In this document: positions 17,980 through 53,804 of the stretch, one piece after another
How the letters are laid out: each line of letters opens with the position of its first letter
Numbering within the stretch: position 1 is the stretch's first letter
From: Ancylostoma caninum
Taxonomy: Eukaryota > Nematoda > Chromadorea > Rhabditida > Ancylostomatidae
Assembly: GCA_037903475.1 (NCBI GenBank)
Contig: JBAJFG010000190.1
Coordinates: 620,001-684,000, forward strand
DNA length: 64,000 nucleotides
Direction of reading: 5' to 3'
Made by a program: the position numbers and the translations under genes
Notes under the pieces: generated by a model
What the model was told of the DNA's origin: nothing
What the model saw: the letters and a program-made list of their open reading frames with translations, nothing else
Database searches by the model: none

Positions 17980-18183
17980 ATGTTTCGTGCTAACGTTGGT
18001 TTGTGCGTCCTTGTTCTCGTCGCTCTCGTAGGCGCAGTTCCACTAGCTGTCGTTGAACGATTCGTGCCCATTGCTGTTGATCCAAATGGAGTCCAGTGAG
18101 TATCCTTCTTTTTTGCAATGAAATTCGCCTTTTTCCAGCTAAACAGCTATGCTTCAGCTTTCACCCATTCCAAGAGACTCTAA
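17980..18183 (+). pseudogene. Secreted peptide family, member 1 (decayed exon 2)
   Basis: Exon 1 (17980-18095, 116 nt) is intact: hydrophobic signal peptide, then AVPLAVVERFVPIAVDPNGV and a GTGAGT donor. Using the AAACAG acceptor at 18141-18146, exon 2 reads a short segment ending SKRL and stops at TAA 18181-18183. Downstream in the same frame are remnants of the family peptide (FGGSCYGN, then MGFS) up to a TGA near 18286. So one stop immediately after the Lys-Arg site cuts off the mature peptide region. Other acceptors (TTCCAG 18138, TTCAG 18157) give other early stops. It is a broken member or one reduced to a short pro-peptide. Confidence 0.7.
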
Positions 18184-18289
18184 GGAACGACGTTCGGTGG
18201 GAGCTGCTACGGTAACCGGGAGGAATTCATCGAAAAAATGGGCTTCAGCGATCTACAAGTATTGCCATCAACAATGAAGGAGATGTGAT

Positions 18290-19079
18290 CTGTGTTCACT
18301 GTTTTTTTCTACTTGTTGTTAATAAAATGCTTACTCAAACAATTGGTTTTATGTCATTTCTCACTCCTAAACGGCTCGACAATTACTGTTCAGTTGGAAT
18401 GAGCGAGTGCGCGATCTTGAATCACTGGGGAAGTTTGAAGTTAAAGCATACTGCGTTTCCCACACATTCTCTTTTAAAGACAGGGGTTTACCTCATTTTC
18501 CGGTTTGAGCTACAAACACATTCTGACTCGCTGTGTGTCAACTCACTTTCATGTTCGAGTTATTTGCAGACTCTGGACCATCTCGAAACGTTGAACCCAG
18601 CGGTATCGTTAAATCTTCACGAAAAGATAGTCAACACATTGACGACAATCGACGCCTTGGCGAGTTGTGCCACGTGCGACCAGTGCGAAATATTCGCTCA
18701 CTTTCTCCACTGCAGTAGCAATAGATTTTATATTAATAAATAAATAACAAAGCTATGAAGCATAATAATGGATTATTAACATCTATTAGTATCGGTACTA
18801 TGGACAATTAACCACTGAATAACAACAACAACAATCAATTAGTAAGTGAAAGAACCAATAACACATATTGATAGTTTTTTGATAAATTGCGTTAATTGTA
18901 ATATTTGTCAAAAACATGGAAGTATAACACAGTTTGAAGTTAATTTTACAATGCATGTAAAATTAACGTATTTCTGGTGATGTATTTTTTGTTGATTTTT
19001 CAACATGAGTGATATAGTACACCTGTCAAAACCAGAAAATTTGCTTATACGGTACAAAATGGTGATCCTTTTCAACGTC
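18290..19079. other. Block without recognisable gene
   Basis: AT-rich sequence following member 1. A 152-codon frame (18285-18743) has no recognisable features and overlaps the end of the pseudogene; I treat it as chance. Confidence 0.5.
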
Positions 19080-20536
19080 CCACGTCAAAAATGGGGTTCC
19101 TGGGATCAGAATCTCACGCATGATTATGTTTACGTCAGTGAAAGAACTTTGACTGATCGGAAATTGATGTTTTAAGTGTAGGGAAATAATGTAATAATCA
19201 ATGCAATGAGTTGTCCACTATCACTGCCTTCACCGAACCTTGTTTCTTTTTGCTTGAAGACATGAGCATAGAGAGAAATATGATTCTCCACTGTGCTCAT
19301 CCTACGAAACTGTTTTGATGACGTTCGTTGGAGATTGTTGCGAAACCCAAATTCATGTCCTCAAGCATAGACGTTATTTACCAATTTTGAAAAAAGTCTT
19401 CATCTACTTGTAGTAGACTACAAACATTGAGTCCCGTTCCTCAGCACTTGTATGGACAGAGTATAATACCAAATTAGAGGATCGGTCTGAAATGGGAATG
19501 ATGACAACGATGAAGAACAAGGTAGAGATGTGTAGATGCGCAGACAATGAGAGTGAAGTATAACGCGGTTCTAGCCTCGAGCACTAGAGTATACATTGGA
19601 TGAGCACGCCTTCAACAGGGCTAAACCAAGACGAGTTAGGATATGAATGAATGTTATACCTTTATGTTTGTCTGGAACCAGAAAAATTCGTGATAGCGAA
19701 GTTGTCTGAAGTATTCGTTGTTCGATAAATGTTAGGACTAGCAAAAATACCTCTGGAAATAACACTAGTTGAAGGTAATACATGGAAGTAATGAATTCAC
19801 GTTAGTTCGACGAAAGGCGTACTCCTTGCTTCAACCAGGGAGACATCTACTTTCCGTTGATCGCAACAAAACCTAGCTCTTAAGATGGGTAAAATAACTC
19901 CCGCTCTCTTTTCTGCTTCCTGCTGCGCTCGTTGGAAACCATTCTTCATACAAATCCATTCGGCTGCCGTCTCTCCTTATCTCTTTATCACTGTTTCTCT
20001 TGCTCCTTTACCATACGATCAAGATCTCCTTCTGTTGAGGTTCTTCCAAAAGTTTGTCCAAGTGGTACTAGCGCTTGTGCTAAGCAAAAATTGTAACATT
20101 TCGACAAGCCCGTCTCTACTTTGTCATCCCAACACACTTTCCTATCAAGGAGTTTCTAAAGTGACAGTGCAGCGCATCATCGAATTTTGGTATGGAATCT
20201 CGGGTGTTTGTGGTTTGTTATCATAATTTTTTTCAGCAGTGTTATAACAATTTCTGAGAACATCAGGATAATGTAGGGACAGATTTTTCTTTCATCTTTC
20301 AGAAATTTACAGTGAACTTGTGTCGGTGATCTTTGAAACAACATGTCCGCATACTTGACCTGTTCCAGAGTGAGAACAACTAACAAATAGATTTGCTGAA
20401 TCAGTCTACTAACTGCCACCGCAATAAAGATCTCGGGATAGTGCAGAAAATCAATTCTGGTGCACAATTCTCATTGAATGGCGGGAACCGTTGGCGTGTA
20501 AAAACCACTCAAAAATAGTTTAATTTTTAAAAAACC
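19080..20536 (+). repeat. Segmental duplication unit, copy B
   Basis: Homologous in order to 12990-13485, 14430-14865 and 17497-17979 without the insertions seen there. It is the best guide to where the LINE and the other insertion entered copy A. About 65 bp (roughly 20010-20075) has no counterpart beside the LINE, suggesting a small deletion at that insertion. Confidence 0.85.
20442..20455 (+). promoter_or_regulatory. Conserved upstream element of gene 2
   Basis: TGCAGAAAATCAATT region, 82 bp before the ATG; the most diverged of the six. The TATA position reads GTGTAAAAAC (about 20493), a weakened box. Confidence 0.5.
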
Positions 20537-20810
20537 ATGTGTCTTTCTGTAGTTGCTCAGTGGTTCCTTGTTCTCGTCGCTCTCGTCGGCGTAGTTCCAC
20601 TAGCTATCGTTAAACGATTTGTGCCCATTGCTTTTGATCCAAATGGGGTCCAGTGAGTATTCCTCTTTTTTTCTCCACTCAATTATCCTTTTTTTCCAGT
20701 TAAACAGCTATGCTTCAGCTTTCACCCATTCCGTACTGTTCTGTAGCGGCTCCACAAGTGAAAAGGAAAATCAAGAAGGAAAAGGAACGCAATTCTACAT
20801 TTTCCGTTGA
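20537..20810 (+). CDS. Secreted peptide family, member 2 (diverged)
   Basis: Exon 1 (20537-20652) encodes a signal peptide and VVPLAIVKRFVPIAFDPNGV, followed by a GTGAGT donor. With the AAACAG acceptor (ends 20707), exon 2 (20708-20810) reads YASAFTHS and then about 25 unrelated residues ending YIFR, for 72 residues in all. The Lys-Arg-Gln site and the FGGSYGN, MSESMSFN and WFG blocks of the intact members are absent. It is probably a pseudogene or a member with a replaced C-terminus. It is closest to member 1, from the same duplicated unit. Confidence 0.45.
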
Positions 20811-20869
20811 TTTTCTCTCGACAAAAGCGACTAAATAACAAATTATAGTGGTGTGGACATGAGATGAAT

Positions 20870-20926
20870 TAATGTGAGCGAGCTTTAGAAGAAGTCTGGA
20901 AGTCCAGCGTCAGCCGGAGGGACAAA
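20870..20926 (+). repeat. Third copy of AGTCTGG..hairpin repeat end
   Basis: GAGCGAGC..AGAAGTCTGGAAGT..CGTCAGCCGGAGGGACAAA resembles the right end of the repeat at 10085-10294. The closing arm is mutated (GACAAAT instead of CAGACT). Confidence 0.6.
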
Positions 20927-21150
20927 TTGGTTATTCCATAATGGAAATAGATGCTCTAGAAAACTATCACAAAACCACCTCATTTGTTTCGAGAAACAGT
21001 CCAGAAATTGCTCCGTCAGGCTGTTCGAGAAGTACAAAAGCAATTTTTTATCACTTATACCGCTACTTCCAGGAGGGAAAGTTCTCCACACTTCCTTAGT
21101 AGGCCTTGGTAGCCACCGTAACTGAAAAATCGACAATCATTGACAAAAAC

Positions 21151-21220
21151 TCCTAAGAATTACAAGTACGAAGGCATTATTGGTATGTCAATAATGCCTT
21201 CGTACTTGTAATTGTTAGGA
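21151..21220. repeat. 32-bp stem, 6-nt loop hairpin
   Basis: Arms 21151-21182 and 21189-21220 pair with one mismatch around GTATGT. The stem is too perfect for a typical old microRNA precursor; a recent inverted duplication or a small hairpin-RNA locus are the alternatives. Confidence 0.85.
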
Positions 21221-21640
21221 ATATGTCAAACTGTGGATGTGAAATGAAAATTATCTTCAAAATGGTGATACAACACTTTAGTACGTCAGTAGCCCTGCGC
21301 CGTGTTCTGCCTGGAGAACGAGGGCCTCTTTTAACGAAGTCGCTGCGTCATAAGACCTCGGCACATTTTCTAAACTATTTCTTTTCTAAGGAAATTTTTT
21401 AGGACAAGAGCAAGTGACAGCCTGATAGCGTCAATTCTCAGCTACCTGAGGAATGTAAAGACGACTCACCAGCCTATTCAGACAAGCCCTCGCTCGGCAC
21501 CTACGACAATCTCGCCTTGTTTGAAATATCGATTCTATCGATTTTGATCAAGCTCACTCCCAATTTTCCTTTAAAAAATGGGAACTATTGCTGGTATAGG
21601 TTACGAATTTGACCAGTGTTGTGTATGGCAGTACACAGAG

Positions 21641-21760
21641 GTGTGCGGAATTTTCCGTTTCCCCTTTTACGCTTTCCGTTTTCTGCCCATTTTGCCTTCC
21701 GTTTTATGTTTCACATTTCACGGGTTTTTGGCCCGGAAAACGAAAAATCCCGGAAAATCA
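21641..21760. repeat. TTCCGTTTTACG-rich repeat, copy 1
   Basis: TTTTCCGTTTCCCCTTTTACGCTTTCCGTTTT..CCATTTTGCCTTCCG arrangement, repeated at 22697-22790 in the same orientation about 1.05 kb downstream. Confidence 0.75.
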
Positions 21761-22690
21761 TAAAGAGAGAGGGGTCGTTGTTTTTGGCGTCCTTCCCTAT
21801 CCTGAAGAGGGTTCTCGTGTTCCGATGCGCAGTGTACATGAGTTCGCAACAATGACATAAAAATTGGCGTCTAGACACCACGAAGCTCGAACCATTTTGT
21901 TTCTTTTTTTGTCTCAGCTGCAGGGTAAATGTCCCGTCGCGGCTTTGCTGGTCTTCATCGTAGTTCCAATTATGCCATACAAGTGCCCTGCTCTCCTCGA
22001 AATTCTCAAAAAAAAGAAAAAAAGGTTCCACAGAAGTGAGGAGTAGATTCACAGAAAATTTCCATGAAATTGTGACCTGCCATGGTGAGAGCATCAAGCA
22101 TTCTTGCGAATCAACGCATGATCTGGGCTTTCTTTCAACTTGAAAAAGCATAAGGCTACACCGTAATTGTCACTGTTTTAGTCTGACGGTGGTCCCCAGC
22201 TCTACACTGGCGCCGCTAGTGCCTGATTTCTTGCGCAATTTCGGTGCTGCTTGTGTTTCACGTTCCCCACACGCCGTTCTTCTCCTCCTTCCTCCATTGC
22301 TAACTCGCCCCAACAGGATCCGTTGTGGATAAAGTGATCCTTCTCTGATCCCAAGCCTATTAATTGCCATAGTTACCTTTTTGTCCAAATTTTGCGGAAT
22401 AGGTCTGCTCCAAGGTAGAGCAGAGAAGTCGCGCTTTTGACACCTTACAGTATGTCGTATACTTAAAAATTCAGTGATAAAGATGCTTTTCGATTATATA
22501 ACTCTGTTAATCTCTCGTAACTAGGTGAAGGATAAATACTCTACAATCTACCTATATTATAGGCGGATTGAAGTACGTACCATCAATGGGTTTGAGGTTA
22601 CTTAATTACTTGAAAGAGTCACCACTTATGCTCATCAAGAAGATGCCTAGAAAATCCAATGTTGGAGATGACTTTCAGTCAGAAACCTAT
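21761..22690. other. Block without recognisable gene
   Basis: Between the two TTCCGTTTTACG repeats. No motif-bearing frame was recognised on either strand. Confidence 0.45.
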
Positions 22691-22696
22691 GCTTGG

Positions 22697-22790
22697 GCAA
22701 AATTTTCCGTTTTCCGTTTTACGCTTTCCATTTTCCTCCCATTTTTGGCCTTCCGTTTTCCGTTTTACGTTTTACGGGATTTGAAATTTT
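22697..22790. repeat. TTCCGTTTTACG-rich repeat, copy 2
   Basis: Aligned with 21641-21760 (GGCAAAATTTTCCGTTTTCCG, CCATTTTTGGCCTTCCG). The two copies may be ends of one element or two insertions. Confidence 0.75.
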
Positions 22791-24662
22791 ACTTCCGCAC
22801 ATCCCTGGTGATGATGGGTCTGAGATAGCTCTGCACGAATTCGCACGAAAATGTTGTTGGGGACCCGTTAGGATGCTCACAAAAAAAAGAGTATCTAACA
22901 TGGTTCGTCGTGTCGTTGATGCCCTCAATCATCCTAGCATTGTTGAAAGGTTCATCAAGATCATGCCGCATGATCGAGAGCGGTGCCGACGCACAGCTGC
23001 CGAGTTCGTTCAAAGCCGAACCAGTTGGGCATGGCACTCGAGTACCGTAAGCGCTCATATCTCAGGCGGTAGTGTATGCGAAATCTGGCACGTCATCAAT
23101 GCAGTAGAACAAGTTGTGGTCGTCTAGGTTGTAACATTAAAAGAATTATGGACACATCTCTCAAGGATACTAGTTGTTTTGCATTCCTTACTGATGAGGG
23201 CAATGGTGACCTGAATTTTTTTCTCTGTAATCATAACGCACGAAACTAGAAATAAACGCTAACTTTCCTATCCACGCTATCGTCTGCTTTGCTTGATACG
23301 GTTTTGGTCGATCTATGGTGACTCACAGTGAGAAAACCGATGCTTAGCCACCAAAACAGTTTCGTTATTAATTCTTCTCCTCGCACAGGGTCACATATGT
23401 CGCCTTCATGGATTCACCGTGAAATATTATCGGCCAACCCCAAACTGACACTGCTACGATTCAATCTTTGTGTCCTGGTTTTTTGGTCATTCTGCAAAGT
23501 GTCATCTGATCTGTCATTTTGTTTTGGGAAAAAAGTGTTGACAGAACAAGGAAGAATACTCCTCGCGTAGGAAGTAGTGTGCCATCACCGTCACTTTACA
23601 CCTGTGCGCATGATCAAATTTCGCAAAATAAACCTGCACTTCGGGAGAACTTTGTCACCTGGTATCCTTTGACGTCATTTTGCAGGACGACCTTTCATAG
23701 CGATCATGACCGGTCAGGTGATTATTCCTGAAGGATGGTGGAGGAGTCATTGCTCTAAAGCAAATCTTGGAAAAAAGATCAATAAATAAGCTGATTGGCT
23801 GGATTCCAGCGTAAAGTTATCTTCTTTGGACGGATACAAAACAGCCAATGCATTTGCCGAGTGTGAAGGGTGTCCATATTTATGTGTTTGCATGTTTTGA
23901 GTTTCAACTAGAGATCAAATGGAAGAGAACGTCAGGCCACTATTTGTCGGGAATATCCCTAGTTAGTTTTACCACCGATGCAATTAGATTCATCTAAGAA
24001 ACCGATTTGATTAATAAGTTCAGTATTTTGTTGACCTATTCCAAATATCGAACATTCGAAAAAAAAAAGAGAGGCTTTGCAGCACGTGTTCTTTCTACCC
24101 CAGGTCTGTGCTGCTCCCCATTTCTCGAAAACTCAAATTTTCTACCCCTTTCAAGGTCGATGGTTCTATAGTGACAGCTACAAAAATGAACAAAAAATGC
24201 AGTCCAAAAGAGTTCGAAAAACCGCTACGAAAATTGTGTTCTATTTGAGAAAGTTGTGTATGAATTGTGTCATATATCCATGGGAATCATCCATAGGAAT
24301 TGAAAAACCTTCTGCTCCTGGTTTCACTGGGACTGCTTTTCAGCTTCTGATGCTCTCAAAAAGTTTTGTAAGCATGTTTCGTGAATACAGTCAACACTGC
24401 AAAAATGAAGCGTGCCGGAACATGAGCGCGTTAGATATGCAGGGGCGACTTAGAGTACGTGGAAGCAGGGGTAAGCCTCAAAATGGTAATGTTGTACGTG
24501 AATGGTGGAAATTAAGGTGTGAAACTATCAAATAAAAAGAAATATTCCTGGAATTGGCGGCCTGGGGAAAAATTAGAGATCTAGACGATAATTTTAGTCC
24601 ATCCTGCATGCTGTTATAGTGCCGAGCGTCAAACGTACGCATACATTTCCACAGGACTCCCC
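22791..24662. other. Block without recognisable gene
   Basis: Includes frames of 144 (22693-23127) and 152 codons (24077-24535) with no recognised motif. The second carries CxxC-like pairs but no domain I can name. Confidence 0.4.
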
Positions 24663-24728
24663 ATGAAGACCGCTCAACTCGCCATGCACATCATGCTTCT
24701 ATTCTTGTTCACACTGTCACGTGCGCGG
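24663..24728 (+). CDS. Possible signal-peptide exon
   Basis: ATG at 24663 in a CCCC-ATG-AAG context encodes MKT plus a hydrophobic run (MLLFLFTLSRA) and meets a GTGAGC donor at 24729. A Helitron-like element begins 42 bp further on. No matching second exon was identified, so this is either a gene interrupted in intron 1 or chance. Confidence 0.3.
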
Positions 24729-24770
24729 TGAGCGCAAACATCCAATAAAAATGTCCTATAACTTGCAGAT

Positions 24771-25785: not shown

Positions 25786-25789
25786 TTAT

Positions 25790-26140
25790 ATGTAGATAAA
25801 AATAAATGTCTGTCAACACAGATGATTAAACAAAGAAAAAGAGCGCCAGCATGGATTAAGTACTTCTCCTAAGCTCCAAGAAAAATGTGCCAAATGCAAT
25901 TCTCATATAGTGTTCTAGCAGTGATTTAATCCTAAAATCATCCTCTTCGTACTGAAATTATTAGAAAAAGTATGTAAACATTTATTTCATCTCTTTCACC
26001 CGACCTGTCCTTTGTTCCTGGAAACTGGATAAGTTCCTGGAAAAGAGTTGATGTAACGCCAAAACCTTTGAGAGTGCTGCAGAGTTGAATTGTTCTGTCA
26101 GTGCATTCAACTCAGTAATGTCTAAAAAAGACCACTCCAT
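25790..26140. other. Block without recognisable gene
   Basis: AT-rich spacer between the Helitron-like element and the mariner-type element. Confidence 0.5.
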
Positions 26141-26142
26141 TA

Positions 26143-27030: not shown

Positions 27031-27161
27031 TATATTTTGAAGGTGCCCTACATATTTGCCAAAAAAGTCCGGAGAATTTGCTGGATAGGTCCTTTACTCG
27101 TTCCTTAACTATAACAGTCGGTACACGACAACATCTCGTGCTCAAAGGTCTACTGAGTAGT

Positions 27162-27175
27162 GTAAAAAACAGGTT
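27162..27175 (+). promoter_or_regulatory. Conserved upstream element of gene 3
   Basis: GTAAAAAACAGGTT, 85 bp before the ATG. A TATAAAAG box lies at 27216-27223, about 37 bp before the ATG. Confidence 0.75.
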
Positions 27176-27259: not shown

Positions 27260-27606
27260 ATGTGCCGAGTTCTAGCTGCGTTGTGCCTCCTCGCTCTAAT
27301 AGCTGTCCTCAGCGCTGTTCCTGTAGCGGTCGTTGAACGATACGTTCCGGTAGCTGTTGATCCAAATGGAGTCCCGTAAGTCATCATTTCATCAGTTTAT
27401 TATCAGTCATCATTCCATTTCTCCCTTATGTTTCTTCCCGTTCTTGTGTTTCTTTCCTTCTTTATGTGCAGCATTCCAGGCTTCACCGATATAAGAGGCA
27501 ATGGGGATTCCCATTCGGAGGCAGTTACGGTAACTCTTGGGGAATGAGCGAAAGCATGAGCTTCAACGCTTACAACACCGGCTACAACAATGGCTGGTTT
27601 GGATAA
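27260..27606 (+). CDS. Secreted peptide precursor family, member 3
   Basis: Two exons: 27260-27375 and 27480-27606, joined across a 104-nt intron (GTAAGT donor, TTCCAG acceptor). A competing AG at 27471 would shift frame. The product is 80 residues. A signal peptide occupies about residues 1-19, then AVPVAVVERYVPVAVDPNGV, then LHRYKRQ with a dibasic site. The rest is Gly/Ser/Asn/aromatic-rich with FGGSYGNSWGMSESMSFN and ends NNGWFG. If cut after Lys-Arg, the released peptide would begin with Gln and end in Gly, a usual amide donor. AATAAA lies 34 nt after the stop (27640-27645). No known family recognised; role is inference. Confidence 0.85.
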
Positions 27607-35180: not shown

Positions 35181-35254
35181 AAATCAGTTCAATCGTTTCT
35201 TGGTCGCAGAGCACGCCAGACGATGACCAATACGAAGAAAATTTCCGGGGAAGT

Positions 35255-35268
35255 GCAAAAAACAGGTT
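35255..35268 (+). promoter_or_regulatory. Conserved upstream element of gene 4
   Basis: GCAAAAAACAGGTT, 86 bp before the ATG, identical to gene 5. CTTTAAAAG at about 35308-35316 is the TATA-like box. Further upstream CCAGACGATGACC (about 35216) is shared with genes 5 and, in part, 6. Confidence 0.8.
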
Positions 35269-35353
35269 ATAAGGACATCTCTTCGGTGAACTTGTTCTCG
35301 TTTCCTTCTTTAAAAGCCACTGAGAAGCAGGTGAGAGCAACATACACAATAAC

Positions 35354-35659
35354 ATGTGCCGAGTTCTAGTCGCATTGTGCCTCCTAGCCCTCGCCGCTGT
35401 CATCAGCGCTGTTCCAGTAGCAGTCATTAACCGATATGTGCCAATTGCCGTTGATCCAAATGGAGTCCCGTGAGTAATCCTTTATTATTGTGTTCTCCTT
35501 TTCCTTTGATTCTCTACTCAACTGCTTTGTTTCAGCCTTCACCGATTCAAAAGACAATTCATGCCATTTGGGAGCAGCTATGGTAATTCATTCGGAATGA
35601 GCGAAAGCATGAGCTTTAATATGTACGACACTGGGTACAGCAACAACTGGTTCGGATAA
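35354..35659 (+). CDS. Secreted peptide precursor family, member 4
   Basis: Exons 35354-35469 and 35536-35659 are joined across a 66-nt intron (GTGAGT..TTTCAG), giving 79 residues. Signal peptide, then AVPVAVINRYVPIAVDPNGV, LHRFKRQ, and a 34-residue C-terminal part with FMPFGSSYGNSFG, MSESMSFN and a NNWFG end. Differs from member 5 by one residue (Met versus Val before SESMSFN). The two genes and their upstream regions form a near-identical inverted pair 14 kb apart. Predicted secreted; cleavage at Lys-Arg and C-terminal amidation are inference. Confidence 0.9.
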
Positions 35660-37905: not shown

Positions 37906-38622
37906 ATGACTGTGGTGGAAAGCGAAGGATCCTCTGAAGGTACACCGGACGACGTCGCGAAGGCTCTCCAGCAGCTGCGTGCAGATAAGAAGACGCCGGT
38001 ATTTTCAAAAACCCTTATTAACCATGTGTTCGCTGTGCAAGATATGGTCTCTTCTGTGCTTGTGGAGAACCAGGAACTGCATCAGCAAGTTAACAGCCTG
38101 CGCGATGAGAATAATTCACTCAAGCGCGCTCTTGCTGATGCAAAGAATAAGCTGTCTTCATCGGATAGTGTTCGTAAAGTAAATTCATCGGGTCTGGTTA
38201 GTAATGTTGATGAGAAAGAACGACTGAGGTCTATTGTAATCCATGGCATCTCTGAGTCTACTTCATCCAAAGCCACTGTGAGAGCAAATGATGATTATGA
38301 TGTTATAAGTGATCTCGTTAATCATCTCGATATTGAATGTGTTCTCCAGGCAGTGTATAGACTAGGTAGGAAAGAGCCCAATAGACGCCGTCTTATTAAA
38401 GTAGTTTTCTCTTCTAGTTTTTTCCAAAAGCTGGCTATAAAAAGGGCTACTCGATTCCCTTCCACTCCTTATAAGGGTGCATTCATACGCCCCCCATTAT
38501 CCAAGGAGGAAAGAGATAGCAATAGAGAAGTTAGGCGTGCAAACCTTACCATTGTCGATGTCACCGCTTCCTCTACTCAATTTAACCAGTCTTCTCAACA
38601 TGTCAGGATGCCGGTAAACTAA
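37906..38622 (+). CDS. LINE ORF1 protein, intact frame
   Basis: 238 residues with no break. Residues about 48-85 form a likely coiled coil (VENQELHQQVNSLRDENNSL with leucine/valine heptads), as in ORF1 proteins that trimerise. The C-terminal half (SIVIHGI, YRLGRKEPNRRRLIKVVF, FIRPPLSKEERD) has the arrangement of an RRM-like fold plus basic C-terminal domain seen in CR1/L1-type ORF1s. It would bind element RNA. No gag zinc knuckle is present. Stop at 38620-38622, just before ORF2. Confidence 0.85.
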   Translation: MTVVESEGSSEGTPDDVAKALQQLRADKKTPVFSKTLINHVFAVQDMVSSVLVENQELHQQVNSLRDENNSLKRALADAKNKLSSSDSVRKVNSSGLVSNVDEKERLRSIVIHGISESTSSKATVRANDDYDVISDLVNHLDIECVLQAVYRLGRKEPNRRRLIKVVFSSSFFQKLAIKRATRFPSTPYKGAFIRPPLSKEERDSNREVRRANLTIVDVTASSTQFNQSSQHVRMPVN

Positions 38623-38636
38623 TAAGCAGTCCTCGG

Positions 38637-39338
38637 ATACTTGTCTGTCTAAATTGCTTTTCTTGCAACATCCGCTCCATCCAAAAAAATATTGTTCCGC
38701 TGAAGTTTGCCATAAGAAAACTCTATAGTGATATTACTATTCTCACAGAAACCTGGCTTACACGTTCTCATGATCTCGAGCCTATTTTGGGCGATTTGTG
38801 CGTAGATTTCAACTATGTGAGATGCGACAGAACCCATAAGAAGGGTGGTGGTGTACTGATCCTCATAAGGCGAAATATTGCTTTTGAGAATAGGTGGCTC
38901 GAGTCTGTTCAAGATGCATATGAGATCCTCTCCTGTGATCTTGAATTGCTTCAGGCGACCGTTCGCTTAACTGATATCTATAGAACGCCTTCCTGTAACT
39001 TGAGTAATACCGTGCAACTCACCAAGGTAATAAGTGACTTGTCTTCCTTTGATGGGCAACATGTCATTATCGGTGATTTCAATCTTTCTGATATAAACTG
39101 GCTTAGCAGGACCCCTTCCTGCAGTTCTGCTGGCTCAAGATACTTCATTGGTATGAGCCGGTCATGTAAACTTCGTCAACATGTCCACATTCCTACCCGT
39201 GGTGACCGCATACTAGATTTTGTCTTGAGTAGCCACGAAAACTCAATTAAAGACGTTACTGTAAATTCGCCCGTAGGAACAAGCGATCACTGTTCCATAT
39301 CTTACAACATTACCAACACGTTAGATCCGCCAGCCTAG
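38637..39338 (+). pseudogene. LINE ORF2, AP-type endonuclease part
   Basis: Open frame with ILVCLNC start, ILTETWL (catalytic Glu), GGGVLILIRRNI, VIIGDFNLSDINW (Asp/Asn) and TSDHCSISY (terminal Asp-His), all in the expected order for the endonuclease that nicks target DNA. A single TAG (39336-39338) breaks ORF2; the same frame continues beyond it. Confidence 0.88.
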
Positions 39339-40103
39339 CGACTGCGTAAGGTTTACTCCAAAGCGAACTATGATATCATCTGCCAATTCTTGTGCTCCCT
39401 AGACTGGCGTGGAATCTTTGAAGGTTTTTCGTGTTCCAACGATAAATACGAGTTTTTCCTATCGATCTTGCACTACTGCGTCCAGAACTTTGTCCCTGTT
39501 GGAAAGCAACCTGTGAGTTATGGTAATCTTCCCCCTAACTTGTCAAGGCTTTTTGAACGTAGAGAACAAGCTTGGCTAAAGTCCCAATCCGATCCTTGTC
39601 AGGAAGACGTCACCTATTTTAGAAAGGTTAGGGACAAGTTTGACCTCCTTCTCAAGAAGTATAACAAGTACGTTGAAAGAAAAGTACTCCAGAGTCCTGG
39701 GAAATCCTCGCTTCACAAACTCCTCAATTCTAGGCTGAAGCAGTCACCACACATTCCTACTCTGACGAATGATGATGGTACAACCATTAGCGGTGATTCT
39801 AAAAAAGCATCAATCTTTGCAAAGCAGTTCCAAAAGTCGTTTTCTGAGTGCTCTTCCGACGTACAATGGGACCCGCCTGAAACATCCAGTTCTACAGACT
39901 GTTCTGTATGGTTTTACAAGGAGGATATCCATGAAATGCTTTGCCGTCTACCACTGTCCTACGCTATTACTCCAGATGCAGTACCACTCTTTTTCATTCG
40001 GAAGGTTGCCGTTGCACTCGCTTATCCCTTGAGCACATTTTCAATTACAGTTTCTTGCATAGCGACATACCCAGCCGGTGGAAACACGCATTTGTCTTAC
40101 CAA
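39339..40103 (+). pseudogene. LINE ORF2, linker between endonuclease and RT
   Basis: Continues in the frame of the endonuclease (LEU/ARG-rich linker, FERREQAWLKS, KKYNKYVERKV, FAKQFQKSF). A frameshift near 40025-40035 moves the meaning to the next frame (FLHSDIPSRWKHAF), and the Helitron interrupts at 40103/40104. Confidence 0.85.
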
Positions 40104-41325
40104 TCTATTAAACAAAGCGCCGTAAGGGGGCTAGAGCGGTTAGAGATACGGGGCGGCACTCATAGACACCGCAATCTTGAGGCGCAGACTGTGTGGCGAA
40201 ATGGCCGATTTCCATGGACGCAGACACGTTCGCTTCGGGACCCGAAATTACGTCACTGCTGGCTCTCCCGCATGCACGGGATGGTGATTTCATCACCTTC
40301 GCTGGCGGTCTCGCCGCATAGGAGTGAGGGAGTGTTTACGAGCTTTCAGGCTGCACAATATACGCAGCAGGAAAACCAGCCTTCCACTGATGCGACGCTG
40401 AGTGCACTTGCAGGAAGAGATGGACGGGTGCTATGAGGGCTGCCGCGTCTCGGAAGCTCGGGAGGGTGGACCTACGCGGTCGCCTCATCTGGTGGGTGCT
40501 ATTGCCGCATCGCCTCTAACATGACATTGTATACGGATACGGGTCCACCGATGGAGAAAGGGCCCGCCGTGGCCCAGTGCTGTGGGGAACGCCATGAGGT
40601 GGGTCCAGCTATGGAGAAAAGGCCCGCTAGTGGCCCAATGGAGCGGGGGACGCCAAGATACGGGTCCACCGATGGAGAAAGGGCCCGCCGTGGCCCAGTG
40701 GTGCGAGAAACTCCATGACACGGGTCCACCGATGGAGAAAGGCCCGCCGTGGGTGTACGGGTCCACCGATGAAGGAAGGGCCCGCCGTGGCCCAGTAGTA
40801 TGGATAACACCAGGATACGGGTCCGCCAACATAGGATTGGTCCGCTGTGACTCAGTAAAGTGGAGAATACCAGGATACGGTTCAGGCCTAATGTGTGAAG
40901 ATGGCGCCAGAGTACGAGTCCACCGATGGAGGAAAGTCCGCTGCGGCCCAGTAGTGTGGAAAACACTCGGATACAATTTCGCTTTGTCCAATAATGTGGG
41001 GTACGGCAGGATACAGTTCCGCCGATGGAGAACGCGTCTGCGTTGGCCCGATAGTGAGGAATACGCACGAATACGCCATACGATGGGGAACGAACTTCTC
41101 ATCCGCACACTCAACTCATAAGAAGGACTTCATGTTTGGGCCCATTGGAAGATTTGTTCTGCTTCTCTTATACGTAACTTACAGGAAGGTTTTTGAATTT
41201 GAGCTCAGTTAATAATTAATTTTGCTTATTTGCTAATTTTCTAAGCATTTTGCACGTGTGGAGCTTTTGCACATGCCTCAAGTGGCTGCCCCACCCCACT
41301 TTCTAGCGTCCCGAAGGGGCGCTAG
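40104..41325 (+). mobile_element. Helitron-type non-autonomous element with minisatellite (copy 2), complete
   Basis: Starts TCTATTAAAC and ends with the hairpin CTAGCGTCCC-GAA-GGGGCGCTAG closing on CTAG. It lies between A (40103) and T (41326): the canonical Helitron 5'-TC, 3'-CTRR, A|T insertion. Joining the flanks restores LINE codons reading VLPIPKK. It is 1,222 bp with about 350 bp of unique 5' part, then imperfect 60-bp tandem units (about 40530-41090), then the 140-bp 3' part shared with the element ending at 12455. No Rep/helicase gene. The frames of up to 209 codons inside follow the repeat period and are not genes. Confidence 0.9.
40530..41090. repeat. 60-bp minisatellite inside the Helitron
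   Basis: About nine imperfect units of ATACGGGTCCACCGATGGAG, then AAAGGGCCCGCCGTGGCCCAG and a short variable part. More diverged and less ordered than the array at 11281-11895, without a 240-bp super-unit. Confidence 0.88.
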
Positions 41326-42308
41326 TACCCAAGAAAGCACCATTCTATCTTGCATCAAATTATCGCCCCATCAGCACCACATCTGTGTTTGCCCGAGTTT
41401 TCGAGAAAATTCTCAAGTCCACGATTGTTAAGTACGTAGAAGCTAGGACTATTCTTCCTGATGAGCAGTTTGGGTTCAGGGCCGGTTGATCTACAGAAAC
41501 TCTGATGTTGTCAGCTATGGAAGATTGGACAAAAGCACTTGATCGAGGAACCGATGTTGATGTCGTTTATTTTGACTTCGCCAAAGCTTTCGACAAGGTC
41601 CCTTTCAATGAGCTCATTCTTAAGCTCCACAAAATTGGCTTGCACCCCAGAATTACAAAATGGATGAAGAACTTCATTTCTGGTAGGTCGTTTCAGGTGA
41701 GAGTCAACGAATCATTTTCTTAAACATGTTCAGTGAAGAGCGGAGTCCCCCAGGGTGGTGTCTTATCACCTATACTTTTTATTATATACACATGCGAGAT
41801 TCCTGGCCTAGTTAGTCGTCACAATGTCTCCTGCAAAATGTTTGCTGACGACTTTAAGATATATAAAAGTATCAACTCCAGTGATGACCATGATGATCTT
41901 CAGTCAGCAATTACTGCAATTGCTGACTGGTCAGTCACATGGAAGCTTCCTTCATCTGGCCAAAAAACCAAACTATTCCATCTAGGTCAGTCAGGGGCAA
42001 GGAATGTTTATTACCTTGGTGAGACTCAATTAGACAGCACTGATTCTGTTTGCGACATGGGGTTCACTTTGAATACAAAACTTACCTTTGATGATCACTG
42101 CAACTTGATTGTAGCAACGAAAGCAGATAGAACTGTACATGATATTTTTAGATCCTTGACAACTAAGTCATCGAGTCATCTACTGCTAGCATATAAATCT
42201 TATGTGCGCCCCATTCTTGAATATGGTACTACAGTGTTTAGTCCTAAATCCAAGCGCTCCATTTCAAGACTTGAAGCTGTCCAAAATAGTTTTACTAGGA
42301 AACTGTAG
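41326..42308 (+). pseudogene. LINE ORF2, reverse transcriptase part
   Basis: One frame with PKKAPFYLASNYRPIST, VVYFDFAKAFDK (first catalytic Asp), SGVPQGGVLSPILF, KMFADDFKIY (FADD catalytic pair) and YVRPILEYGTTVFSP. Stops interrupt it at TGA 41487-41489 and TAA 41721-41723. After TAG near 42306 the protein continues in another frame for the thumb region (LHWYNYSN.., 42310-42660). Inactive copy. Confidence 0.9.
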
Positions 42309-46200: not shown

Positions 46201-46201
46201 A

Positions 46202-46564: not shown

Positions 46565-47225
46565 TGTACAATGACTTGTGGATCACCTTATATGTATACT
46601 ACTAAAACGAGTCGAAACGCCTCTTCGCGGCGCTCTCGGACGCGTGTGCCACGTTACTTTTGGGCCATCTTCTCTCAAGAAAATCACTGTCAAAAAGCGC
46701 AGCTTCGTCGCGCTCTCAAATGACGTTTCGCGTATGACAGTGATTTCCTGCAAAGCTGCATGGCTCTCAAACGGTTGAGAGGTTAATTGTTATCATGTTT
46801 AATACAAAGAGCTTTTACATGGTTCATTGTATGAATAGCAACACACACCCTCAAGTGTTGGGACCGTCGTCATTCGTGGAAATGCTGACAGTCCAAACTT
46901 TTGTGGTTCACGCACAAATAGCTTTTAGCAGTAGAGAAAACTGTGTAAGAGCCCTATTCCTATTTCATGGACACAATATTAAACGGAGAGAATGATATGT
47001 TCTATTCAAAGCTGAATCTTGGTTATTTTCATACCTCAACACTTTGAGAGGAGTGCCATAGAAATTTCTATTCAACTCTTCTGTATTTGGGTGATTCATG
47101 ATCTAGATTGCGAAATCACGCACGCATCATCAATACTTACCCCTTTCAGGTCCAAAATATCTAAATATAGATATTTCGTTCTAGTCGAAAATTGGATGTT
47201 GGGAGTGAAGATTTCCATGTTGTAC
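46565..47225. other. Block with one small inverted pair
   Basis: GAAAATCACTGTCA (about 46679) and TGACAGTGATTTC (about 46736) are inverted around roughly 45 bp. Otherwise nothing recognised. Confidence 0.5.
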
Positions 47226-47235
47226 ACATACATAC

Positions 47236-47928
47236 AGTGGACGTGAGTGGCGGTGGCCCATCTGCGGCCTCGAAAAGTAGGCCGCGCTACCGCGCCGCGT
47301 GCTTCGCGAACGATGTTTTCTGCTGCTGTTATGCTATATCTAACAGCTTTCTATTCGATTTTTAGGAAATTGACCAAATTGGGGTGAAAGCCAGGGGGGG
47401 GATCTGCGCTTTAAGTAGAGTAAGATAGTTGTGTGCGGGCGCGGACCACATTCCACCACCTTGTCTTTGCGTTTACTAGGCTTAACGTAATGTATTACCA
47501 TGGGCAACAGTGATGATAACGATTATTAACAGATTGCTCCTACATACATCGGTTTTAGTAACGAAAGGTCTCCGTCTGTGAAGAGAATCGCGAAAGTCAC
47601 GGCATGCAAAGGTGTTGCAGAGCAGTGGAGAAACTATGATTCAACCGAGAACCGAAACCAGAAGTTTGCCTCTTTCTCAAAAAGAATTATTGTGTTGACG
47701 ACTATTCGAGACTCTCCTTCCACGTAAAGTAAAAGGTTCCATTCCCAAAGAAATCCTCATATCGATCGCATCTGAGCCGGCCACACGGCGAGCGCGTATG
47801 CGGCGCGTTTCCGCGGAAGTGCTAACGTGTTAATCACTGGCCAAATTTCTAGGGTCATATGGGCTGCCAGCGGCCATGGCCGTCAACGGCATCAGGCCTC
47901 AGATGAGCCACCGCCATTGACGCCCACT
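47236..47928. mobile_element. Inverted-repeat element, AGTGGACGT ends, 693 bp
   Basis: The left end AGTGGACGTGAGTGGCGGTG continues through CATCTGCGGCCT. The right end is its near-complement (AGGCCTCAGATGAGCCACCG..CCCACT), about 36 bp with a few differences. ATAC lies immediately outside both ends (47232-47235 and 47929-47932), a candidate 4-bp target duplication. No transposase frame. Superfamily not assigned. Confidence 0.75.
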
Positions 47929-47939
47929 ATACGTATGCC

Positions 47940-49530
47940 AATGCAGATGTTGGATTAATCTGACGCGAAACACACACAGAATTTATTTTTGGTCCGTTAA
48001 CCCTTTGACTACTTTCGTGTATTTGGCGCCTGAGACAAGAGTGCCTTTTGACCCTTGGCGGTCACATGGTTCCAGCTGGTTATATTTAAAATGCTAAAAA
48101 TAAAGCAGATCTTTATGCAAAGCGGACTCGGAATATTCCTTCTGTGGATTTGCTACCATTGTTGAAAGAAAAGAAAGATTGATCGAAACACAACTTGCAT
48201 GCTCTAGTGTTGAATTAAGCTAGCAAAACATATCCTGAGTTTTCTAAATAAAAGTGTCAAGAGTCAAAACGTTCCTATACCTCTTGTCTAACTAAGAAAG
48301 AAATGTAGGATACAGCAAACCTTTCTCAGTATGGAAAATGTGGCTTTTGCAGGGAATGTTACCTATTATGACTTAAGAAATACGAGCCTTTGGGCCTCAT
48401 TTTCGAGAAAGAACCATCTTTAACAAGGTTATTAGGACAGTAAAAAGGAAATTTTTGTCAAATCAAGGTTGATAAGACGCTACTGGAGTTATGGCATTCA
48501 TTTCATGCAGAAATGCAATAAAATGGTACGAAAATAAGGACTAATATAAACGCTTCGCAACTAAAAAACTCGGCTCACCGGTGAGCCGCGCGGTCCTCTG
48601 TGGGTTAATCGTTCTCAGCAAAACTTTCCTTTCAGGAAGTCTAAAAACCGTGTTCTATCGGTATGCATGGATTCGGTATGGATTTAGACATTGCTGATAC
48701 AGAGCACTGACTTCGGTAAACGGTGTTTTGCACGACCACTCGTGTCCTAGACGTGAAATTTGCATCTTTCAGTCTCATGCAATACACAGTTCTCAGGTTT
48801 CTTGAGCTGGTTGGATAGATGCAGAACTACGTGTGTCCATGGGGAACTCATGCATCACTTTATCCATTAGTTGGTGTATATATGGTGTGATACAAATCCG
48901 GTGCAGAACCCATGAAGACCGCACGACTTTACCAGTCTCATGCAGAAAACATACACACCTATGCAAAATACGGTTCCTAGGTTTCCTATCTCCCACATCA
49001 TTTTGGGTACCTTTTTATAGGCGGTTCAGAATGGTGTATTCACCATTGTATATCTCAGTGGTACTTTTGACACGCCGCAGAAGTTCTAGCTTGTCAGTCG
49101 TAGTGATTTGCACGACGGAACGGCTCCGGAAATGAAGAAGGGAAACATGGAATCTATCCGTCCGATCAGCCCATATTCATTCCAAATGCGAGGAGAAACA
49201 AAACAGTGGATCTTAACAAAACAGTGGTCTTATGAATCTGGCCATACTGTCAACAACATTCCTATAGGAGAGGCTCCACACAATTTTTAAACTACCTCCA
49301 TGCCTAGATCAATGTCATAACCGAATTCTTGAGTCTGATCCGTCACAAGAAGGAGAACCTTTGGAGTTGGGAATATCAGTTGTTCTATCAACTCAGTTAT
49401 AAGTATTAGCAATTATTTGATTAATTATTTGATTTTGTAGCGTCCCCTTCTTCATGCTTTTAGATGATTGTGTACCCCCGGAAACTTTTGGTGTAAATTG
49501 TTTCCCGAAGAGATTTGTATAGAACAAAAT
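47940..49530. other. Block without recognisable gene
   Basis: Includes TTAACCC near 47998 and GGGTTAA near 48602. They could be ends of another TTAA element, but the flanking bases do not form a clear inverted repeat. No coding feature recognised. Confidence 0.4.
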
Positions 49531-49584
49531 GTAGTGAGAAAATTTATTATTATCCACTTGTGGAAACTATTGAGAAAATTGGTC

Positions 49585-49894
49585 TTATCCGAACCAGTTA
49601 TTGCTGTAACCAGTGTCGTACATGTTGAAACTCATGCTTTCACTCACTCCAAATGAGTTACCGTAGCTGCTCCCAAATGGCATGAACTGTCTTTTGAATC
49701 GGTGAAGACTGAAACAAAACAGTTGAATAGAGAACCAGAAGAACAGCACAATCAATAAAGTAAGGAAAGGCTGCTCACGGGACTCCATTTGGATCAACAG
49801 CAATTGGCACATAACGGTTAATGACTGCTACTGGAACAGCGCTGATGACAGCGGCGAGGGCTAGGAGGCACAATGCGACTAATACTCGGCACAT
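49585..49894 (-). CDS. Secreted peptide precursor family, member 5
   Basis: Minus strand: exon 1 is 49894-49779, exon 2 is 49708-49585, with a 70-nt intron (GTGAGC donor, TTTCAG acceptor). 79 residues, one difference from member 4. Signal peptide, AVPVAVINRYVPIAVDPNGV, LHRFKRQ, then FMPFGSSYGNSFGVSESMSFN and a NNWFG end. An AATAAA (minus) lies at 49548-49543, 37 nt after the stop. The only member on the minus strand; with member 4 it forms an inverted duplicate. Confidence 0.9.
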
Positions 49895-49977
49895 GTTATT
49901 GTGTGTTACTCTCAGCTGCTTGTCAATGCCTTTTAAAGAAGAAATGACGGCAATGTTTAGCGAAAGAGATACCCTGA

Positions 49978-49991
49978 AACCTGTTTTTTGC
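49978..49991 (-). promoter_or_regulatory. Conserved upstream element of gene 5
   Basis: Minus strand GCAAAAAACAGGTT, identical to gene 4, 84 bp before the ATG. CTTTAAAAG box at about 49929-49937. Confidence 0.8.
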
Positions 49992-50099
49992 ACTTCCGCG
50001 GAACTTTTCTTTGTAGAGGTCATCGTCTGGCGAGCTCTGCGATTAAGCAGCGACCACCAAACCAATCCCGCGAACAAGATCATTTCCACCTCAACATAA

Positions 50100-50900
50100 A
50101 AATCAAGTGAAGATTAAATCCGGTTCTCAAAGAGAACAAAGGTTCGGTTCATGACTGAGTGTATGAGTGAAACCGCAGTTATTTCTGGTTCCTCCGGTCC
50201 CGGAAAGAAATCTGCCATTCCCTGCAAAATCAAAGTTCAAACGCGGCCCTTGATAAAGTCTTAATTTAGTAGATCGCGTCATATTTTGAAGTTTTGAGGT
50301 ACCCACACCTCGTGAATAACGATGAAATGGCGCGAAAAGCGCGAGGCAAAGCGTCCACATATCGGCGTTCTCTACATTTTTCGCAGATAGGTGGCAATTC
50401 CTGGTATTTCGCATACTGTTATGATTTTCCTGCCACTGCACGATATGCATACTACTTACTCGAGAAGTAAAACTTCACAAGAGTGCTGCTCTTTAATCAG
50501 CTAAACATATCGCTTAGCAGATGAGTAAAAAATCCCGGTTAACTACGAAAGGCACGGAAAGGTGAAGCTGCTCTACCAGTATCATATGATCAGAAAAATT
50601 TTCATTGTCATTATTTCAGTTGTCTTGAGCGGAACTTCTTAGATTTTGAAATGCTGACAATCCAGGCTTCGGCGGCAATGTTTAAAACACCGCAACCACA
50701 ATGCTCGCGCCTTTGTTGTTGCGTTGTGGTATTTCAAACACAACAACGAAGCACCCAGCTTTGCCCTCGCCCTTTGCCTTTGCTTCTTACTGCCTGCTCG
50801 ACATTCCCTCCCTCGTGCCGATCGTGACGGTGCAGTCAATACCCATCAATAGCGGCTCAGTACTCGCTGGTCATCAATTAGTAGTTGCTGTTCACTTGAT
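50100..50900. other. Block without recognisable gene
   Basis: Frames of 60-107 codons without motifs. Nothing else recognised. Confidence 0.45.
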
Positions 50901-51195
50901 GGGAACCAATAAGTTCTCTGATAACTGTGCAGCACGAGCGCAGCCCGGACACCGTATTGGTTGGAGTAAAAACTCTAGCAACAACGGTTGAAGGTTGCTG
51001 CTATCTTCCCCTCGACTGCTGCTCAAGCTTCCCCCTCCCCATTTAGCAGCAATTGCTGACGGATGGCAGCAATTGAAAGGAGGATGACAGCAACCGGGAA
51101 CCGTTGCTGCTAGGGTTTCTGCTTGAACCATTCCGCCGTACGGGCTGCGTTCGTGCTGCAGAGTTATCGGAGTTGGTCGTCGACTACCATCGTCA
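50900..51195. mobile_element. Foldback element with about 95-bp arms
   Basis: The left arm (about 50905-51000: TCTCTGATAACTGTGCAGCA, CGAGCGCAGCCCGG, AACTCTAGCAACAACGGTT) is inverted in the right arm (about 51095-51190: AACCGTTGCTGCTAGGGTT, CGGGCTGCGTTCGTGCTGCA, GAGTTATCGGAGTTGG). The roughly 95-bp centre is itself rich in GCAGCAATTG-type sequence. No target duplication determined. Confidence 0.8.
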
Positions 51196-52525
51196 ATATT
51201 CTATATTTGTGATGAACTATATAATTTCAAGTCTCTGTGTTACAGCGGCAAGTGGTGATGTGATTCAAGTCGAGCGCACGGAACGACATGAAGAGTTTTC
51301 CTAGCGATTTGAGTAAGAAACTGAAGGGTGCAACAATAGCTTAGACACTTTCAGAGCCTGAGACACTTGTACGTGACAATCTTCAAGCTAGCAATTACAT
51401 GAGGTATGAGGTAGTGAATTCTACAATTCCACCCAGATGATTTTGGAACAGCACTGGCTGACTACCTCAAAAGATCACCTGGCTTGCTTGGTGGCGCGTG
51501 GAGAGGGACAGTGAGCATCAAACATTCCTTTTGGAACAGCGGGTATCATGAAGAGACCGGGAATGTCAATGAATCTATTAGGTCGTCAAGTATGAAATGT
51601 ATGATTTTATGAGCGGTCAGTTTGACAGTCTGTATCTTCGAAAATTTACTAGATCTCTTCTCATCTTTATTTTCATTATGAAGGTACATCCTCTTCCTTT
51701 CAAAATCACTTCCTGGGTTTTCGAATTTTTGTTTGAAAGCATTTCTTGTAGAACTACTCAAAGACGAAAAATCGTGTCGTTTTGGAACATCGGTTTCATT
51801 TTTCAGCTATTAGAGCCGGGGAAGCTGGGAACATCAGGGTAGTGTTAAGGGACATTTGGCTAGTAAATGCACTGAACATCGTTTGCTTGGGAAGTTCCGC
51901 TCAGGGGGGCATAAAGCTCCAAAGTGATCCTTATGATGAACCTGGATATCGATAAGCTGGAAGCCGTAGCCGAAGCTTGTAGGAGTCAAACTAGGTAAGC
52001 GTAAGCAGCAAGGTGTGACCTTTATAATCCAATAATATTTAGGCACTCGAGGCAATATGACCATTAAAAGTGGTTCGGTAAACGAATTTTTCCCAGTTTA
52101 ACCCTTAAAAATGGGTGCCAATTTTTGACCATTTTTCACAAATCCACGCTGCTTAGGCCAGAGGAGCAGGGATGAGGACCCACCTGTCAGTCACTGTACT
52201 GAGCAATCTTGCTCTATTTGACCAACACTCCTTTCAGGGATTAGCTCACTTCTTGCTGGAGAAAATGTTCAATTTTCAACATCATGTTGGAAACGCTCTT
52301 CCTCACTTGATCGCCCATAGCTTTCCATGCTTCTAAGGTGTTGGAGCACCCAAGCCATATTTAAGATGGCAAGGCTATGGAGATAGTATAGGAGCATATT
52401 CGGATATCTTATACTGCATCTTGCTTTAGAAACAAAACTCAAAATCTTCTCATCGAAAATCAGACATTTCATGCTTGACGACCTAATACAATAGCAGCTC
52501 CCCCAGCATTAACTTCTCTTGCTGA
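51196..52525. other. Block without recognisable gene
   Basis: No motif-bearing frame or element end recognised. Confidence 0.45.
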
Positions 52526-52696
52526 CGAAAGTCACCCTACCAAGGCCACGTTTTCACTGACAACTTACATTTGACCTTACAAGGCCGAGGTACCACTAGA
52601 AACTACCCTCGAGGGCCGTGTTTCAATTGTCGGCGATGCGGCCACACTGCGACAGTATGCGGAGTCCCAAAAAATTCCAAACCGGTGGATTCGTGA
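52526..52696 (+). pseudogene. CCHC zinc-knuckle fragment, Gag-like
   Basis: A 56-codon open stretch between stops contains PCFNCRRCGHTATVC: Cys-x2-Cys-x4-His-x4-Cys (codons at 52619, 52628, 52643 and 52658), the nucleocapsid-type zinc knuckle. It follows a basic, Gly/Arg-rich stretch (GRGTTRNYPRG) and ends at TGA 52694-52696. No protease or polymerase follows, so this is most likely an isolated retroelement Gag remnant. A host CCHC exon is the alternative. Confidence 0.55.
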
Positions 52697-52699
52697 CAG

Positions 52700-53405
52700 A
52701 AAAGATCGGAAGAAAATAATTCGGCGTTTTGCCAGAAGAATTATGAAGGTGGCAAAATGATTTCTTCGAAAGCTATTTTATCAAACGCATAATCCCCGGG
52801 TTCACGTTCCAGTTTTGCGAGAAATAGTGTTGATCAAAACAGAGACACATAATATGACTCATAACATAACACTTACTGCAGTGATAGTCCGCAAGAATGA
52901 ACTTCCGATCATTTTCCGTTTCCTGATATCTTGAGGTGAGAACGAACGTTTTACAGTTAAGCACGAAGACTAAACAAGAGGTGTCAATCTTCCCAAGGAT
53001 TCTAGTTTCGCATTCCCTCCAGGGATTACCTTTCTTTTGTTCATTCTATTTGTGCACGGTGCCAGAATTCTAGTACCAGGACCTCTACTCACTTTTCACT
53101 GACCCTTGGCTTTCCATCTGTAGTAACACATGTTTAGCCTCTGCTCGTGATCTTCCTCTTCCCATTATGGTATGAGAGCGATGTTCCAGACTGTTCGCTT
53201 GGATATCTTGAGCACGGAGGCATAGATGTCCGGCATGATGCATTCAAAGTGCGTCTTGCGCTTGAACTTTGCTCCCCTAAAGTAATAACTTTCATCCTAT
53301 ATTAGCAATTGAGTAATCATCGATCTCGTTCGTCGGACCAGTTAAGAATTCGTTCTTCGGGCGCAGTGTTCGCAAGACGATGACCTTCGAGAACAGAAGC
53401 TCTTT
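52700..53405. other. Block without recognisable gene
   Basis: Upstream of gene 6. The GCAAGACGATGACC block at about 53370 is shared with the upstream regions of genes 4 and 5. Confidence 0.5.
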
Positions 53406-53411
53406 GAAAGT

Positions 53412-53425
53412 GCATAAAACAGGTT
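53412..53425 (+). promoter_or_regulatory. Conserved upstream element of gene 6
   Basis: GCATAAAACAGGTT, 88 bp before the ATG. CTATTAAAG at 53467-53475 sits at the TATA position. Confidence 0.7.
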
Positions 53426-53512
53426 TTCAGGGCATTCCTTTTGCCAAATATCGTCACCATTTCTTCTATTAAAGCCATTTACAAAGAGCTGAGCGTAAGC
53501 ACCAACAAAATC

Positions 53513-53804
53513 ATGCGTCATGCTCTGGTCTCACTATGTCTCCTAGCTCTCTTCGCTGACCTCAGCGCTGTCCCAGTTGCTGTCATTAATCGATATGTGC
53601 CATTAGTCGTTGATCCAGATAGAATCCCGTGACTAACCCTTGCTGTCTTTCATCCTCCTTTTTTCTGTTTAACTGCTTTGTTTCAGAATCCATCGGTTCA
53701 AAAGACAATTCATGCCACTTGGGAGCAGCTACTCATTTGGAGTGAACGAAAGCATGAGTTTCAACATGTACGACACAGGGTACAGCAATAGCTGGTCCGG
53801 ATAA
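53513..53804 (+). CDS. Secreted peptide precursor family, member 6
   Basis: Exons 53513-53628 and 53687-53804 (58-nt intron, TTTCAG acceptor), 77 residues. Signal peptide, AVPVAVINRYVPLVVDPDRI, IHRFKRQ, FMPLGSSYSFGVNESMSFN, and an end reading NSWSG. Two residues are missing relative to member 4, the Phe of the terminal Trp-Phe-Gly is Ser, and the donor is GTGACT rather than GTGAGT. If the donor fails, translation ends at the TGA directly after exon 1. Either a weakly spliced or a relaxing member. Confidence 0.75.

Follow-up and report, generated by a model that had tools for sequence, protein, structure and literature searches.

The stretch of the Ancylostoma caninum genome analysed here – 64,000 nucleotides of contig JBAJFG010000190.1 (assembly GCA_037903475.1), hereafter the window – contains a family of very small two-exon genes whose products appear to be secreted precursors of single amidated peptides. 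A blastn search with the first exon of one member, that beginning at position 35354, returned six loci in the window and no others: five on the plus strand (17980, 20537, 27260, 35354 and 53513) and one on the minus strand (49894), the five non-self loci with E values from 1.8e-15 to 7.5e-52. In 6/6 loci exon 1 runs 116 nt from the ATG to a GT donor and ends in phase 2, just as an earlier note on this DNA had described. That note also spoke of six members, which is right for the window; only four of them are intact, however, and a seventh locus lies elsewhere in the genome. The exons are as follows, loci being named by the position at which exon 1 begins.

27260..27375, plus strand: exon 1 of an intact member, encoding the putative signal peptide together with the greater part of the pro-segment (blastn, gene model)
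27480..27606, plus strand: exon 2, with RYKR cleavage site, mature peptide and WFG-stop end (gene model; AATAAA 34 nt past the stop)
35354..35469, plus strand: exon 1 of an intact member (blastn, gene model)
35536..35659, plus strand: exon 2, with RFKR site, mature peptide and WFG-stop end (gene model)
49779..49894, minus strand: exon 1 of an intact member (blastn, gene model)
49585..49708, minus strand: exon 2; the spliced product equals A. caninum ANCCAN_06494 (AATAAA 37 nt past the stop)
53513..53628, plus strand: exon 1 of an intact member (blastn, gene model)
53687..53804, plus strand: exon 2, with RFKR site, mature peptide and WSG-stop end (gene model)
17980..18095, plus strand: exon 1 of a decayed member, whose second exon lacks a KRQ-to-Gly reading frame (blastn, sequence reading)
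20537..20652, plus strand: exon 1 of a decayed member, whose second exon is unrecognisable past its start (blastn, pairwise alignment)

Identity to exon 1 of 35354 is 96.6% for 49894, 81.9% for 27260 and 81.0% for 53513 over 105 nt; the decayed loci retain 79.8% over 94 nt (17980) and 78.2% over 87 nt (20537). An AG acceptor and an open exon 2 are found at 27260, 35354, 49894 and 53513, separated from exon 1 by introns of 104, 66, 70 and 58 nt respectively. The spliced precursors measure 80, 79, 79 and 77 aa in the same order, and each bears out the earlier description of four intact members in which KRQ is followed by a peptide ending in WFG (27260, 35354 and 49894) or WSG (53513) at the stop. 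Counted from the Gln, the mature segments comprise 35, 34, 34 and 32 aa, that of 49894 being read from an identical deposited product (P0001, below). At 17980 and 20537 sequence reading and tblastn found no intact KRQ-to-Gly second exon; these two loci form a pair, with some 750 nt in common (17420-18171 and 19996-20732) at 72%.

The gene models are not the product of chance, because deposited models match them: the 49894 product is letter for letter that of A. caninum ANCCAN_06494 (P0001), and the 27260 product has a counterpart in A. duodenale (P0002) with 75/80 residues identical. The seventh locus, on another contig, has an exon 1 of 110 nt and an intron of 61 nt, and its spliced product is identical to A. 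caninum ANCCAN_16526 (P0006). It emerged from a search of the 348-Mb, 638-contig assembly with one protein query, which gave 12 exon-level matches – ten belonging to the six window loci and two to the seventh – and which may therefore undercount the loci.

Three protein searches, with 4, 194 and 350 scored candidates, yielded a total of 13 relatives (P0001 to P0013); such searches detect only relatives that have exact 5-residue words in common with the query. Two of the 13 are from A. caninum, two from A. duodenale, three from Oesophagostomum dentatum and two from Cylicocyclus nassatus, with one each from Heligmosomoides polygyrus, Haemonchus contortus, Nippostrongylus brasiliensis (E 4e-5) and Necator americanus (E 0.24). 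All of these species belong to the superfamily Strongyloidea (NCBI taxonomy; seven species were checked, A. duodenale via its genus). Most source databases call the proteins hypothetical or leave them unnamed, while the Haemonchus relative bears the name 'Neuropeptide-Like Protein'. Two Oesophagostomum proteins, P0003 and P0004, are named 'Sulfur globule protein CV3', probably an artefact of composition.

The earlier note professed not to recognise the family, and so far as the searches reach this stands: no Pfam family was matched at its cut-off, nor any in NCBIfam (a library for prokaryotes), and no published description was found in open-licence main texts, a search that did not cover supplementary gene lists. 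Sub-threshold matches in Pfam and NCBIfam (CIMIP3, GEO12453p1-like, DUF3309, SUR7, CbtB and a cobalamin-biosynthesis model) were rejected as chance, as was a sub-threshold match to an aldehyde decarbonylase chain in a PDB sequence search. Two literature leads – an A. caninum L3 'neuropeptide-like protein' expressed sequence tag, Ac_SSH_C_018 (PMC2217673, seen in part), and Teladorsagia neuropeptides mentioned in the accessible part of PMC3521389 – could not be tied to the family.

Strongyloidea are parasitic in habit, and that every relative found comes from this group is what would be expected were the products excretory-secretory peptides of parasitic stages, acting on the host and having no role inside the worm. 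But the searches could miss free-living relatives, and we consider a purely host-directed role highly improbable.

The 13 relatives were aligned with three window products, the fourth intact product being P0001 itself (alignment A4, 16 rows). A furin-type R-x-[K/R]-R site is present in 16/16 rows, P0012 being the sole R-A-R-R, and Gln directly follows the site in 15/16, its place being taken by Trp in P0013. In 16/16 sequences the most strongly hydrophobic stretch starts at residue 4-6. The earlier proposals of a convertase-type cut ahead of Gln, and of an apparently secreted nematode precursor giving a single mature peptide, are supported by these features. The C-terminal Gly is kept in 15/15 complete sequences (P0007, the sixteenth, ends earlier and is excluded from the C-terminus counts). 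Eleven stop immediately after this Gly, and in four relatives KR, R, RR or KR stands between the Gly and the stop; the residue ahead of the Gly is Trp or Phe in 14/15 and Ser in 53513.

The standard signal for amidation is a Gly with basic residues behind it at the C-terminus of the peptide. The alternation of such tails with a bare Gly at one position is the strongest reason to expect amidation in the window copies, and the C-terminal amidation that the earlier note suggested gains support from both the conserved Gly and the relatives ending G-KR, G-R, G-RR and G-KR. The genome also contains copper-monooxygenase (PF03712) exons – six matches over the cut-off, as against none in 14 control genomes. 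This domain is common to the amidating enzyme PHM and to the dopamine and tyramine beta-hydroxylases; since it is not specific to the former, it is weak evidence for amidation.

One candidate for the kind of peptide concerned is a true neuropeptide or peptide hormone, which neurons or gland cells would release to signal through a G-protein-coupled receptor. The basic tails of the relatives, the Gln start, a single conserved peptide per precursor and purifying selection (see below) all accord with this, but at 32-35 aa before amidation the window products are long, and they are of low complexity. The pair of residues adjoining the amide position differs between sequences (WF, WS, FW, GW, WW, FF and GF), whereas amidated neuropeptides often show their strongest conservation at just this end. 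Local duplication together with two decayed copies, moreover, resembles birth-and-death evolution. A neuropeptide is possible, yet on balance we find it doubtful; of the 'single-peptide prohormone' envisaged in the earlier note, the single amidated peptide is supported, and hormone status does not follow, R-x-K-R being a furin-type as well as a regulated site.

Across the whole coding sequence the ratio of nonsynonymous to synonymous rates (dN/dS) lies between 0.02 and 0.19 in 6/6 pairs of the four intact copies, a signature of purifying selection; the sequences compared are short, and dS reaches saturation or is undefined in certain regions. Between genera it is the mature core that is conserved, with invariant Gly, Ser and Tyr columns (14 sequences of <90% identity), and the pro-segment that shrinks and changes. 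Gly makes up 22.9% of the mature segment in 27260, 14.7% in 35354, 14.7% in 49894 and 12.5% in 53513. Among the 13 relatives it ranges from 14.7 to 40% and exceeds 17% in 12/13, P0001 being the exception. The window copies and 12/13 relatives have no Cys in their mature segment. An AlphaFold2 model of P0001, computed with 12 relatives, has an N-terminal helix only, at a mean predicted local distance difference test (pLDDT) score of 56; residues 41-79 have block means of 44-50 and no predicted fold.

This low-complexity, apparently disordered mature part would also suit a structural or surface peptide – a Gly/Ser/aromatic-rich component of the worm's cuticle or surface coat, of its eggshell or of mucus, in which R-x-K-R would be cleaved by the same convertase as matures cuticle collagens. 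Nematode collagens carry furin-type sites, and the neutral or acidic charge of the peptides is in keeping with such a role. The amidation-type tails of four relatives are, however, hard to explain on this basis, and the product is very short and matches no Pfam family at cut-off; we judge a structural role unlikely.

Among known systems, the closest likeness is to the C. elegans NLP-24 to NLP-34 peptides and caenacins, in small secreted precursors, Gly-rich linear peptides, a local cluster, size, composition and probable processing. The C. elegans peptides likewise show Gln starts and Trp-Gly-type ends, and clusters of linear Gly/aromatic-rich peptides are a mark of nematode skin antimicrobial peptides. 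Differences exist: the hookworm core is non-repetitive and Ser/Asn-rich, and its pro-segment carries a furin-type site. No homology to NLP-24-34 or caenacins was detected in searches that need shared 5-residue words. The accessible text on the C. elegans nlp-29 cluster describes six antimicrobial peptide genes in ~12 kb, induced by fungus and under epidermal control (PMC2453101), and NLP-29 is stated, in the part seen of PMC8936185, also to act on the neuronal receptor NPR-12.

A second comparison is with the glycine-rich secreted peptides (GRSPs), defined in the available part of PMC10506718 as proteins of <=200 aa with a signal peptide and mature Gly >17%, and profiled there in 134 nematode genomes; a further criterion asks for a C. 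elegans GRSP within the top five BLASTP hits. The hookworm precursors, at 77-80 aa and with a signal-peptide-like start, fall well inside the length limit, and 27260 and 12/13 relatives exceed the Gly threshold. The family may be a branch of the GRSPs whose hookworm copies drifted under the Gly line, and a published list of GRSP genes may already include it without a name. With the NLP neuropeptides (to nlp-98) it shares a signal-peptide-like start, a basic cleavage site and a C-terminal Gly. A survey of NLPs in nine parasites introduced nlp-85 to -98 and excluded nlp-24-34; none of its novel nlp motifs, as far as given in the accessible text, matches the hookworm family (PMC8764417). This counts against a neuropeptide, yet because nlp-24-34 were excluded there, absence from the survey says little.

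Taking these data together, the explanation we favour, at about even confidence, is that the family encodes amidated, secreted peptides of the sort represented by the nematode NLPs and GRSPs, serving in epithelial defence, local signalling or both. Several observations weigh against it. The peptides are neutral or acidic, with charges of -2.2 to -0.2 (ten sequences) and no mature Lys or Arg in any of the 13 relatives once the tail is removed, whereas NLP-29 carries +6 and CNC-2 +3 (PMC8936185, in the part seen). Three of the four intact copies – 35354, 49894 and 53513 – lie under the 17% Gly cut-off given in the available part of PMC10506718. The nlp-29 cluster diverges adaptively, according to the accessible part of PMC2453101, whereas the hookworm paralogues are under purifying selection. 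The Necator match (P0013) is non-significant alone and was accepted only on the strength of the core and tail that it shares; it is also the one relative with Cys in the mature segment, where it has two. Finally, no Caenorhabditis protein was among the 4, 194 and 350 candidates, in searches whose reliance on exact 5-residue words could leave free-living relatives undetected. Since three of four copies fall short of the Gly cut-off and the NLP survey leaves a gap at this very point, we file the genes as nematode amidated secreted peptides, with no named family.

From the structure of the genes and their homology, the conservation of the cleavage site and of the terminal Gly, the four relatives' tails and the purifying selection, we infer the expression, actual processing, tissue and role of the peptides as follows. 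In this strongylid family, with a single peptide per precursor, signal peptidase would remove ~19 residues and a furin/kexin-type convertase would cut after R-x-K-R; the freed N-terminal Gln could then cyclise. The C-terminal Gly would be converted to an amide via PHM/PAL, basic residues being trimmed first in those relatives that have them. The window products would be cysteine-free, disordered peptides of 31-34 residues in which Gly, Ser, Asn and aromatics abound, three ending in Trp-Phe-amide and one in Trp-Ser-amide. With pyroGlu and the amide their calculated average masses would be about 3801 (35354), 3769 (49894), 3831 (27260) and 3504 Da (53513). Their function would most likely be akin to that of the C. 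elegans NLP-24-34 peptides and caenacins: secretion from an epithelium, with epidermis the best guess, for defence and/or as a local signal. A bolder proposal is that they constitute an unnamed, strongylid-specific amidated family, locally duplicated in hookworms and distinct both from FLPs and NLPs and from cationic skin antimicrobial peptides, and serving as an epithelial signal through a dedicated receptor that recognises the conserved Ser/Asn/aromatic core; this we consider rather unlikely.

Should the favoured explanation hold, strongylid parasites would have in common a set of short, amidated peptides lying in a gap between published surveys: the Gly-rich group is omitted from the NLP one (PMC8764417), and the GRSP cut-off would exclude 35354, 49894 and 53513. 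The peptides would also be concrete candidates for peptidomics, antimicrobial assays and receptor deorphanisation.

Similarity between 35354 and the other intact members starts ~100-160 nt ahead of the ATG and stops within ~50 nt of the stop codon; the alignable unit is therefore the promoter plus the gene. The features concerned are these.

35193..35353, plus strand: upstream block alignable between members, ~100-160 nt (pairwise alignment)
27168..27175, plus strand: upstream AACNNGTT palindrome, in the form AACAGGTT (motif match)
17890, 35261, 49978 (minus-strand gene) and 53418: start positions of the equivalent AACNNGTT motifs (motif match)

In the block ahead of 35354 the AACNNGTT motif lies ~90 nt, and a TATA-like stretch ~45 nt, before the ATG. 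The motif is present between -90 and -95 in 6/7 loci, where the window rate would predict 0.075 per 150 nt; it was not found upstream of 20537, the sole exception. Its arms are constant and its middle bases vary (AG four times, CA and GA once each). The palindrome resembles a Grainyhead site and could be a Grainyhead-type epidermal site, which we offer as a lead only; because the loci are homologous, its conservation is merely suggestive. The idea of a forkhead site in the upstream block was dropped (no match, 0/7 loci). A TATA-like stretch stands at -34 to -45 in 5/7 loci; there is no match in 53513, and 20537 has one only close to the ATG. Downstream, the AATAAA poly(A) signals lie at 34 nt (27260) and 37 nt (49894), and no AATAAA was found within 200 nt past the stop in 35354 and 53513.

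A Pfam scan of twenty open reading frames in the window revealed mobile-element domains only, and scans of the window with Rfam (gathering cut-off) and for tRNAs gave no matches. On the plus strand, 8279-9328 holds a fragmented transposase of the Mos1/mariner type (HTH_48, Transposase_1 and DDE_3). Remains of non-long-terminal-repeat retrotransposons lie at 38586-42308 (plus strand), between members 35354 and 49894, and at 16404-16802 (minus strand), directly ahead of 17980; endonuclease/exonuclease and reverse-transcriptase domains make up the set found in these two remnants. GC-rich minisatellites with units of ~60 nt, similar by eye, occur ~29 kb apart at 11277-11892 and 40539-40752, the former with additional units of 119 and 240 nt. 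AT-rich tandem repeats with TTCGAATA-like units are found at 9487-9660 and 6859-6967.

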